Shown piece by piece: positions 1 to 3,564 of a DNA stretch of 22,882 nt (position 1 is its first letter; each line of letters opens with the position of its first letter). The position numbers and the translations under genes are program-made. Source of the stretch: a virus; the IMG/VR virus record IMGVR_UViG_3300032242_001183, positions 1-22,882 of that record, one strand, 5' to 3'. The notes under the pieces were generated by a model, which had not been told where the DNA came from, did not search any database, and saw nothing but the letters and a program-made list of their open reading frames with translations.

Positions 1-149
1 CGCGAGACAACTCCGATAGGCCGCAAGGACTGAGCATCCAAAGCGGACTGGAGTTGAAGATATAGTCCGATCTAACGCGATGACAAAGCGTTAGACCGCA
101 GCAGAAATGACTGCGGGGCCGCACTCAAGTGCGGTGCTAACAGCATGCG
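1..149 (+). ncRNA. Group I intron, 3' part (in capsid gene)
   Basis: The 3' catalytic core of a group I intron is visible. AAGATATAGTCC (57-68) matches the conserved S element. Its TAGTCC (63-68) can pair with GGACTG (27-32) to form P7, and TCCA (37-40) with TGGA (49-52) to form P8. Three peripheral hairpins of the P9 kind follow: TCTAACGC/GCGTTAGA (71-78/88-95), CCGCAG/CTGCGG (96-101/111-116) and CCGCAC/GTGCGG (119-124/129-134). Capsid-like coding sequence begins just after them, around 149, so the splice site should lie at a G between about 143 and 152. The exact terminal G is not resolved. The 5' part of the intron, and any homing endonuclease in it, lie outside the window. Motif and pairings are seen; self-splicing is inferred. 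Confidence 0.85.
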
Positions 150-808
150 TGGAGCAATCTCCTCTTGCCGGTGGCTTGGATCGCATGATCTTCACCGACC
201 TTCTTGCCAGCTACAACTACCGCTTGAACGCTGCCGTCATCAACGGCGTCGGCACCGCAGGCGACTTCACCGGCCTCCTCAACACGGTTGGCATCGGCAC
301 CGTCACCTACACGGCCGGCACGCCGACCGCGCAGGGCATCATCACGGCCATCGCTCAGGGTCTTAGCACTGTTGCTAAGAACCGCTACATGGGCGCCGAG
401 GCAATCACCATGCACCCGTCGATCTGGTACATGCTGGTTGGCTCTGTGGATTCTTCCAACCGTCCGTTGGTTGTGCCCAGCGTTGCTGGACCGACGAACG
501 CTGGCGGCGTCATCGACGTTCCCGGTCAGGCTCAGGGCCTCGTGGGCACCATCCACGGCGTCCCGGTCTACCTCGACGCTGCGATCCCCACGACGCTGTC
601 GAGCACGCAGTCGGCCATCATCGTGTCGACGTTCTCTGACACTTTCCTCATGGAGTCGGGCGCTAAGACTCGGGTGCTCCCCGATGTCGGCAGTTCGACC
701 TTGACAGTTCGTTTCCAGCTCTATGGATATGCGGCCATCGCAGCCCGCTACCCCGCGGGTATCGCCAAGATCGTTGGCACCGGCCTCGTACCGCAGACCG
801 GCTACTAA
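149..808 (+). CDS. Major capsid protein, HK97 fold, 3' exon (partial)
   Basis: About 220 residues of an HK97-fold major capsid protein, the subunit of the icosahedral head. The exon opens with VEQSPLAGGLD, followed by a segment with the family's 'D..A..Y...LN.AVINGVGTAGDFTGLL' pattern, a mid-region that ends in HPSIWYMLVG, and the typical C-terminal part with GTIHGVPVYLDAAIPTT and RFQLYGYAAIAARYPAGIAK. The N-terminal half is missing because it lies in an upstream exon beyond the window. The open frame runs back to an ATG at 107, but that ATG sits in an intron hairpin and is not a real start. The start given is the approximate splice point kept in frame. A perfect inverted repeat follows the stop codon. 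The family call is by recognition of the pattern; the exon boundary is approximate. Confidence 0.88.
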   Translation: MEQSPLAGGLDRMIFTDLLASYNYRLNAAVINGVGTAGDFTGLLNTVGIGTVTYTAGTPTAQGIITAIAQGLSTVAKNRYMGAEAITMHPSIWYMLVGSVDSSNRPLVVPSVAGPTNAGGVIDVPGQAQGLVGTIHGVPVYLDAAIPTTLSSTQSAIIVSTFSDTFLMESGAKTRVLPDVGSSTLTVRFQLYGYAAIAARYPAGIAKIVGTGLVPQTGY

Positions 809-816
809 GCCAGCCA

Positions 817-1088: not shown

Positions 1089-2264
1089 ATGGCCCTGACC
1101 GCCACTTTTCATTCGAACGCCCCCTGGACTTATACGGGCTATGGATCTCAGACCAAGCAGCTCGTGCGGCGTATGCACGCCGACGGTCATCGCATGGCGA
1201 TCGGTGCGAACTACGGCATCGAGCAGATGATCACCGAATGGGAAGGCATCACCGTCTTTCCGCGTGGCCTCGATGCCTATAACAACGACATCGTCGGGCC
1301 GTACTTCGACGACTGGACGTCTCGGCATCCCGGCACCAAGGCGTGCCAGTTCACTCTGTTCGACGTCTGGGTGCTGAACTCCCCGCGCTTCGATGACATA
1401 CCGACAGTCTCGTGGGTGCCGATCGACCACGTCCCGGCACCTCCGGCCGTCGTGGAGTTCCTACGCAAGCCGACCGTGCGCCCGATCGCCATGAGCAAGT
1501 TCGGCCAAGAGATGCTCGCCCACGACAAGGTGGACTCGACGTTCATCCCGCACGGCATTGAGACAAAGATCTTCAAGCCCACGGCGCGAGTATCGGTCGG
1601 CGGCAAGATGATGACCGGCCGCGAGATCATGGGAATCGACGAGGACCGCTTCGTCGTCGGCTGCATCAATGCAAATAAGGGCATCAACCCAAGCCGCAAG
1701 TCTTGGGGCGAGAACCTCCTAGCCTTTTCACTGTTCGCGCAGCAGCACGACGACGCAGTCATCTACTTACACACCGAGCGCGATGGCGCGATGGGTGGTG
1801 TCAAGCTGACCGAGATCATCAAGTCGCTCGGCCTGCGCGAGGACCAATACCGCTTCGTGAACCAGTACGCCTACCGCATGGGCATCCCCGATGAGGGACT
1901 CGCGGCGATCTACACCGCCTGCGATGTCGGCCTCATGGTCAGCATGGGCGAGGGCTTCGGCCTAACAGCCGCCGAGATGCAAGCCTGCGAGCGCCCGGTC
2001 ATCGTGTCCGACTTCTCCGCGCAGCCCGAGCTACTGGGCGATGGCTGGCTGGTCGCCGGTCAGCCGTGGTGGGACGCCGCGCAGCATGGCTGGTTCAATC
2101 AGCCGATCGTCGGCAACATCGTCGAGGCACTCGAGGCTGCTTATGCTCGCGGCCGTGGGATGAGTGCCAAGGCTCGCAAGCACATCGTCGATAACTACGA
2201 CGCCGATCTGGTCTATCAGACCAAGTGGCGTCCCTTCCTGGCTGATCTCGAGGCGTCCCTGTGA
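1089..2264 (+). CDS. GT4-like (GT-B fold) glycosyltransferase
   Basis: A 391-residue retaining-type glycosyltransferase of the GT1/GT4 superfamily, expected to move a sugar from a nucleotide-sugar donor to an acceptor in the cytoplasm. The N-terminal half has the glycine-rich opening WTYTGYGSQTKQLVRRM. The C-terminal half carries the GT-B E-x7-E signature: E288 and E296 in GEGFGLTAAEMQACERPVI. Full length for the family. The start at 1089 has AAGGA ahead of it (1078-1082). The stop overlaps the GTG start of the next gene, so the three sugar-transfer genes are translationally coupled. Because they sit between the capsid and connector genes, the likely acceptor is a virion protein, but host-surface modification cannot be excluded. 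Donor and acceptor are not visible. Confidence 0.85.
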   Translation: MALTATFHSNAPWTYTGYGSQTKQLVRRMHADGHRMAIGANYGIEQMITEWEGITVFPRGLDAYNNDIVGPYFDDWTSRHPGTKACQFTLFDVWVLNSPRFDDIPTVSWVPIDHVPAPPAVVEFLRKPTVRPIAMSKFGQEMLAHDKVDSTFIPHGIETKIFKPTARVSVGGKMMTGREIMGIDEDRFVVGCINANKGINPSRKSWGENLLAFSLFAQQHDDAVIYLHTERDGAMGGVKLTEIIKSLGLREDQYRFVNQYAYRMGIPDEGLAAIYTACDVGLMVSMGEGFGLTAAEMQACERPVIVSDFSAQPELLGDGWLVAGQPWWDAAQHGWFNQPIVGNIVEALEAAYARGRGMSAKARKHIVDNYDADLVYQTKWRPFLADLEASL

Positions 2265-2911
2265 TCCCGGTGATGATCGTCCCGGTGTTGGCTCGCCCCG
2301 AGCTCCTGTACCGGATGATCGACAGCATCGACCATGCGATCGCGCAGCTCGTCATCATCGACAACGGCCGCGTGGTGGATCCGCAGCAGGTGCTCACGCC
2401 TTACGCGCTGACCACGCACCTGCTGCCTATGCCAGCCAACTTCGGCGTGGCTGGCTCATGGAATCTCGGCATAAAGTCCACGCCCTTCGCCCAGTGGTGG
2501 CTCATCGCCAACTTTGACGTGGTCTGGCCTGCCGGCAGTCTCGAGCGCCTCGCGCAGGCGAGCAGCTCTCAGGCATTGACCTTGACCGCCTGTCAGCCCG
2601 CGTGGTCGGCCTTCACGATCGGCGATCGAATCATCGACGCCGTGGGACTGTTCGACGAGGCCTTTCACCCGGCCTACTTTGAGGACAACGACTACCTGCG
2701 CCGTTGTGAGAAGGCTGGCGTGCATATCGAGCGCACCGAGATCCCGGTGCGCCACGACAACTCCAGCACCCTCGCCGCCGGCGGCTTCGCTGCCCGCAAC
2801 GGTCACACCTTCCCGGCTAATGCCGAGCATTTCCACGACAAGGTCGAGGCCGGTGACTACTCCGAGGGCCGCTGGACGTTAGCCAGGCGCAGGAGGTTGT
2901 CGTGGGATTGA
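2261..2911 (+). CDS. GT2-like (GT-A fold) glycosyltransferase
   Basis: A 216-residue protein with GT-A features: N-terminal beta-strand IPVMIVPVLARPELL, a DNG motif at about 34-36, NFDVVW (84-89) in the place of the metal-binding DXD region, and FEDNDYLRR with E141-D142 as the usual ED acceptor-site motif. These suit an inverting GT2-type transferase acting in the cytoplasm. The GTG start overlaps the preceding stop (GTGA), and its own stop lies inside the next gene, so it is the middle member of a coupled three-gene set. It is shorter than many GT2 enzymes but both motif regions are present. The sugar and acceptor cannot be told from sequence. Confidence 0.8.
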   Translation: MIPVMIVPVLARPELLYRMIDSIDHAIAQLVIIDNGRVVDPQQVLTPYALTTHLLPMPANFGVAGSWNLGIKSTPFAQWWLIANFDVVWPAGSLERLAQASSSQALTLTACQPAWSAFTIGDRIIDAVGLFDEAFHPAYFEDNDYLRRCEKAGVHIERTEIPVRHDNSSTLAAGGFAARNGHTFPANAEHFHDKVEAGDYSEGRWTLARRRRLSWD

Positions 2912-3564
2912 CCCTGCCGAGTGACCCGCACGAGTTCAAGGATTCACGCAAGGGCGAGACCGCCTACGTCATCGCGTCCGGCTCCAGTGTTGACCACGTC
3001 CCGCGCTGGTTCTTCGCTGACAAGCTCTGCGTGGCCGTGAACTTTGTCGGCGTTCGCCTGCAGTTGCCCGAGTTCTACACCGTGACGCACTACTGGACCG
3101 ACGCGAATCAGATCGCCGCGGCGCGACCCGATCTCCCGGTGATCGCTCCGATGGTTGATCAAGGCGGCCCGGCCGCGATCAGCACACCACCGGCCGCATC
3201 TAACGTCTACCGATTCAAGACCAACGCGCAGGCCTACAGTCAGTTTGACTGCGCGGAGTTGTGGCCCAAAGAGCCGCACGCGCTCATCGCTGGACCCACC
3301 AGCCTGCACATGACCATGCACTTCGCTGCCTACCTCGGCGCCCGCCACATCATCCTCGTGGGCGCTGACTGTGGCCTGCTGGACGGTCGTGCCAACTTTG
3401 ACGGATACGCACGAGGCGATAACCCGATGCCGGTGTGGGCTGAGCATTTGCCCAAGGTCGCCAACCAGCTGCGCGCTGAGGGCATCTCGGTGATGTCGCT
3501 CAATCCGTTCGTCAACTTCGCGCTCGAGGGCCATCGCTATGACGGCCCCTGCACTATCAACTAG
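2902..3564 (+). CDS. DUF115/MAF-like glycosyltransferase-related protein
   Basis: A 220-residue protein resembling the core of DUF115 (motility-associated factor, sialyltransferase-like) proteins. An N-terminal nucleotide-binding type motif AYVIASGSSVD (21-31) precedes a strand-rich region, then AGPTSLHMTMHFAAYLGA (130-147) followed by IILVGADCG (150-158), the family's typical 'G..S...A...A.YLG...I.LVG.D' pattern. MAF proteins transfer nonulosonic acids to proteins in flagellated bacteria, and phage relatives often stand next to glycosyltransferases. The GTG start has an excellent AGGAGG at 2891-2896 and lies inside the previous gene. Role inferred: the third enzyme of a protein-glycosylation cassette. 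The family call is by motif, and the substrate is unknown. Confidence 0.7.
   Translation: MGLTLPSDPHEFKDSRKGETAYVIASGSSVDHVPRWFFADKLCVAVNFVGVRLQLPEFYTVTHYWTDANQIAAARPDLPVIAPMVDQGGPAAISTPPAASNVYRFKTNAQAYSQFDCAELWPKEPHALIAGPTSLHMTMHFAAYLGARHIILVGADCGLLDGRANFDGYARGDNPMPVWAEHLPKVANQLRAEGISVMSLNPFVNFALEGHRYDGPCTIN

Follow-up and report, generated by a model that had tools for sequence, protein, structure and literature searches.

Introduction

In 2013, RT-PCR demonstrated group I introns in two genes of cluster J mycobacteriophages, one for a capsid protein and one for a tail protein; the study also mentions a capsid intron in the lactococcal phage Tuc2009 (PMC3706429). Bastillevirinae introns lie mostly in the DNA polymerase gene (PMC11878797), and phage group I introns are usually reported from genes of nucleotide metabolism and DNA replication, a preference that has been called mysterious (PMC12350094). 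The major capsid gene of phage LittleE carries an 819-bp intron, in which an endonuclease ORF runs on the opposite strand, and its splicing was established by RT-PCR and protein sequencing. The intron of the BAKA minor tail gene, likewise RT-PCR-proven, measures 265 nt and contains no ORF (PMC3706429). A single gene can also carry several such introns, with possible exon skipping, as in the three-intron gene of phage Twort, as far as that work (Landthaler and Shub 1999) is recounted in PMC11878797.

Here we describe an intron at the edge of a phage contig of 22,882 bases. This stretch (the window) is an entire IMG/VR record, which begins at base 1 inside the intron. As in LittleE, a group I intron is found in an HK97-type capsid gene. 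The two capsid proteins are about 36-40% identical, the 5' part of the LittleE intron is homologous to the intron family of the window, and a glycosyltransferase gene lies downstream in both phages. However, the LittleE intron is inserted at about residue 138, whereas the one in the window interrupts the gene at about residue 220 (site B). The BAKA intron has the P3-P9.1 architecture and the UAACA-NNNN-G end of the window family, and its core is 77% identical over 78 nt (blastn), although it resides in a minor tail gene. Multiple introns per gene are also found in the window family, where the genes concerned are capsid genes; Twort, going by the same account, belongs to another phage group. 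Capsid introns as such are already known from LittleE; new are the insertion at site B, which is undescribed, and an intron family that resides mostly in phage capsid genes.

Results

Gene content of the window

Downstream of the capsid exon, the window holds glycosyltransferase-like genes, a head-tail connector, a tail region, an integrase, a primase-polymerase and an HNH gene. Mycobacteriophages, including members of the Omegavirus group, encode the nearest relatives of the capsid protein, with at most 40% identity, and the primase has matches in phages of Arthrobacter and Mycobacterium. Consequently, an actinobacterial host is plausible for this uncultured tailed phage. The glycosyltransferase-like genes (PF13692, PF00535 and a weak MptE-like match; 1089-3561) directly follow the capsid gene, a placement also seen in LittleE, and glycosylation of the virion is possible. 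The HNH gene is a small endonuclease ORF at the far contig end (22562-22837), and nothing ties it to the intron.

The window starts within a group I intron

A first-pass annotation, made from the letters of the window, had proposed that the contig starts inside a group I intron of the capsid gene. This proposal was borne out. We regard it as nearly certain that a group I intron interrupts the major capsid gene and that positions 1-147 hold its 3' part, which runs from P3 (3' strand) to the terminal G. A conserved core, covariation in 35 relatives, an exact splice junction, alleles that lack the intron, two sister contigs and a homologue with experimentally proven splicing all point to it. The intron and exon features given below lie on the plus strand of the window.

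When the window alone was compared with the Rfam group I model (RF00028), a match at 1-94 with 15 bits (E 0.2) was obtained, its 5' end cut by the contig start. This is below the gathering cutoff, since the fragment comprises neither the 5' strand of P3 nor P4-P6 nor the 5' strand of P7. The sister contig L003, which holds 236 bases of intron and is itself cut at the 5' end, reached 33.8 bits (E 3.4e-7) in a match that aligns the two P7 strands, and the complete homologue in contig L064 scored 51.9 bits against a gathering cutoff of 50. Weak Rfam matches to v-snoRNA-1, MIR2907 and P15 in the window were taken as chance.

For comparative analysis, 87 viral stretches were gathered by a pattern for the P4-P5 core, and 35 sequences were aligned. 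In a structure comprising P3, P4, P5, P6, P7, P8, P8a, P8b, P9 and P9.1, 92% of the cells were paired across the 35 sequences. Both sides change in 30 pairs, with 202 double-change cells compared to 58.7 +/- 6.1 in shuffles (0 of 500), and sliding the partners dropped pairing to less than 43%. A P3-P8 core with compensatory changes was found across the relatives. In the window, the 3' strand of P3 (GCGAGA) occupies positions 2-7; its partner UCACGC is off the contig and lies at 13-18 of L003. For this helix 94% of cells are paired, and four of six pairs show double changes. P8 (9-14/50-55) with P8a (21-24/43-46) and P8b (27-29/37-39) spans 9-55 and is indicated by alignment, covariation and fold; P8a is weakly backed across the family, with 48% of cells paired in the alignment used. 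This region includes the GGACTG motifs that had been read as the P7 partner. Alignment and covariation reject that assignment: the motif belongs to P8 (P8a/P8b) and is not conserved, and the true 5' strand of P7 lies upstream of the window.

J8/7 and the 3' strand of P7 were located at 58-69 by alignment, covariation and the Rfam match of L003, and the S element AAGATATAGTCC noted there in the first-pass annotation was confirmed. P7 is formed by window 64-68 and GAGACT at L003 83-88; window base 1 corresponds to L003 92, so this strand falls just outside. The pairing is kept in all 33 sequences with letters on both sides, including a G-C to C-G double change. The P7 guanosine site with its bulged base is present in L003 and 32 other relatives, and the window, which has the 3' strand only, is identical to L003 in that strand.

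Three further hairpins follow. P9 (71-95; 71-78/88-95) is 96% paired with double changes in five pairs, and P9.1 (96-116; 96-101/111-116), which carries the conserved loop CAGAAAUGA, is 100% paired with double changes in all six. P9.2 (119-134; about 119-124/129-134) was found in the fold, and L003 and BAKA have a hairpin of other sequence in the same place. Thus, P8 and three P9-type hairpins, as anticipated, could be confirmed: the fold of 1-147 has z = -4.4, with none of 200 shuffles equally stable, and a profile of the 3' half matches 1-113 with E 5e-22, a value somewhat flattered because the window is among the 35 sequences from which the profile was built. The intron ends with UAACA-GCAU-G (138-147), compared to UAACA-GUUU-G in L003 and UAACA-AACC-G at the RT-PCR-proven end in BAKA. 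Its terminal base is G (G147), as expected of a group I intron, in the same end pattern as BAKA.

The splice junction lies within a leucine codon of the capsid gene

The intron is followed by the 3' exon of the major capsid protein (148-808, stop codon included), assigned by alignments and identified as HK97 type by PF05065 (E 2e-12) and phrog_2263 (E 1.6e-28), in agreement with the earlier reading of an in-frame capsid exon. Alignments of the window to L002, L003, L004 and L013, which have no intron at site B, begin exactly at base 148. The intron extent of 1-149 given before was therefore two bases too long: G147 is the last intron base and C148 the first of the exon. The uninterrupted site in L002, L004 and L013 reads CAGCT/CGTCGAGCAG, which places the junction after the second base of the Leu codon (CU|C) in QLVEQSP. 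Joining exon 1 of a second sister contig, L097, to exon 2 of L003 yields an uninterrupted capsid protein of 440 aa, and the model with the site-B junction likewise has an open reading frame. The prohead protease gene upstream of the capsid gene (L004:2481-4217; L097:3607-5190) has additional N-terminal coding regions: that of L004 contains a ferritin-like domain (PF00210, E 7e-10) fused to Peptidase_S78, and L097 differs in sequence there.

That the junction is an assembly chimera, or a dead intron fragment joined by chance to a capsid exon, we consider extremely improbable. The site-B junction was found in one contig only and lies 147 nt from the contig end, as such an artefact might. However, the exon begins exactly after the terminal G with the reading frame kept, the helices that are present are all intact, the G is preceded by GCAU where the site-A copy in L003 has GUUU, and the changes in the exon flank cluster at the junction.

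The first-pass annotation had also warned that a gene call starting at the ATG at 107 would give a wrong capsid N-terminus, and this is correct. The ATG (107-109) sits in the P9.1 loop and is not the capsid start. Its ORF is in frame with the exon, and since it starts in this loop, its first 13 to 14 residues are intronic. A tie of capsid output to splicing, as raised in the first-pass annotation, could work through unspliced RNA that gives no capsid protein or a short form from this ATG, with splicing efficiency setting the amount. Stops in the intron frames and an ATG in frame with the exon would fit this idea. Nevertheless, the ATG belongs to a loop that is conserved in the whole family regardless of frame or host gene, and splicing of the LittleE capsid intron was presumed to be extremely efficient by its discoverers (PMC3706429). 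No sign of regulation was found, and we regard such control of capsid output as highly improbable.

Related introns occupy two sites in the same capsid gene

The two sister contigs carry the intron at a different position (site A), after residue 172-173 and about 145 nt upstream of site B in the same gene. L097 (IMGVR_UViG_3300032242_002003) contains capsid exon 1, ending GACTCGGU (in a longer reading ...GACTCGGT), and then 159 bases of the intron 5' half up to the contig end. This half has a P1 of CGGU/GCCG, in which the guide GCCG fits its own exon end CGGU, and an in-frame stop. L003 (IMGVR_UViG_3300032247_000221) starts within the intron, runs from P3 to the 3' end and continues CAACATTCCCC, the other side of site A. 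L003 holds by far the closest intron to that of the window, with 92% identity over 143 bases; for the 3' domain the value is 89%, the next being 74%. The phages carrying the intron at the two sites are 93% identical over 5.3 kb. Judged from these contigs, a closely related intron has occupied two sites in one capsid gene of closely related phages.

The intron 5' half and upstream capsid exon of the window genome are off the record. The L097 5' part and the window 3' part add up to 265 bases, the length of the BAKA intron, and leave no room for an ORF. At site B, the predicted guide pairing is that of CAGCU with GGCUG. No second contig with the site-B junction was obtained with the intron pattern in viral contigs, which gave only L003 and L015, and the wider core pattern recovered L097 and no site-B 5' half. 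Likewise, blastn of window 1-810 against phages and a search of the L003 intron against plasmids gave no match.

These contigs also allow for a reading in which one capsid gene holds two near-identical introns, at sites A and B, with about 145 nt of exon between them. Such a repeat would explain why contigs break in the intron, and the middle exon could be skipped; it would extend, rather than replace, the interpretation given above. Consistent with it, the last 41 nt of L097, which lie in the site-A intron, are identical to window 1-41, whereas L003 differs there at five positions. In addition, all three contigs stop inside the intron, and several other capsid genes of the family have two to five introns. 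On the other hand, L003 has intron A without intron B, so coexistence is not required, and no contig of this capsid type shows both. Two introns in the gene are hence possible, and we give this reading rather less than an even chance.

Sequence changes flanking the intron

Intron-plus alleles are represented by the window (site B) and by L003 and L097 (site A), and intron-minus alleles by L002, L004 and L013. At sites conserved in four relatives, the window has 19 private substitutions in the 658-base exon, of which 11 fall within 75 bases of the intron. In terms of conserved sites, 11 of 68 are changed in this 75-nt span, compared to 19 of 524 in the whole exon. The 75-base span was chosen after seeing the data; a permutation over all 60-base stretches, which allows for that choice, gave P = 0.001 for the best stretch with its 10 private changes. 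The first 60 exon bases encode the same residues as in L003. A cluster just 3' of the intron is as expected from co-conversion during homing, and we designate 148-237 a candidate co-conversion tract. A strong tract at site A was rejected, the signal there being only marginal.

Neither the window part of the intron nor the L097 5' half contains an ORF, and no endonuclease gene was found in them. In larger members of the family, HNH endonuclease ORFs directly follow the intron core (L081:605-1081, L102:291-914) and are candidate mobility genes.

The assigned host genes of the intron family are virion genes

Host genes of the intron family in phage contigs were assigned by the 3' exon (PHROGs), counting distinct contigs (L022 and L068 are one) and leaving aside those with short or missing 3' exons. 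The family set was defined by one DNA pattern, the P4-P5 core. All 38 assigned genes encode virion structure: 33 major head, three major tail, one minor tail (BAKA) and one portal protein. The major head genes span several capsid families (phrogs 1357, 10, 2263, 752 and 29). In other capsid relatives of the window type (e.g., L032, L036, L042, L064 and L098), the intron lies at about residue 138, the site of LittleE. In bacterial genome contigs, mostly Patescibacteria MAGs, the P4-P5 core pattern was likewise present in 69 stretches (L104-L172); two of the three that were checked are recognised by Rfam.

Some capsid genes of the family carry two to five introns. In L071, L066, L095, L074 and L048, three or more group I introns lie close together, mostly in capsid genes, and some exons between introns are very short (about 40 nt in L020). 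The 3' domains of the L020 intron pair are nearly identical (98%). Intragenic duplication was rejected as a general origin of multi-intron capsid genes, for pairs that are mutually closest were seen only in L020/L053, L068 and partly L074; most copies therefore arrived independently.

Discussion

If its 5' half is like the one in L097, the intron in the window would be short, about 265 nt, and ORF-less. The ribozyme core (P3-P8), in which the guanosine sits in P7, would excise it from the transcript in two transesterifications, and joining of the exons ...CAGCU and CGUGGAGCAAUC would restore the capsid reading frame. The DNA itself shows the structure, where the intron is inserted, the restored frame and the second site; self-splicing of the window copy and homing are what we infer. 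The intron would be a mobile element that most likely arrived by double-strand-break (homing) repair, because near-identical copies exist at the other site and the exon flank looks co-converted. The homing endonuclease may have been supplied in trans or since lost.

We tentatively propose, as a view that falls only a little short of probable, that this intron lineage is concentrated in virion genes, mainly the major capsid genes of several unrelated capsid families, where it uses several sites with up to five introns per gene, moves between sites and may allow exon skipping. Beyond the cluster J study (PMC3706429), no capsid-specialised introns were found in the open-access literature, and to our knowledge the concentration of an intron family in capsid genes has not been described there before.

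Automatic gene calling yields wrong capsid N-termini at such loci and assemblies break inside such introns; therefore, mis-annotation may be frequent among the capsid genes of uncultured phages. A family that resides almost only in virion genes, changes its site and bears apparent marks of co-conversion would provide a natural comparison for how introns choose their host genes.
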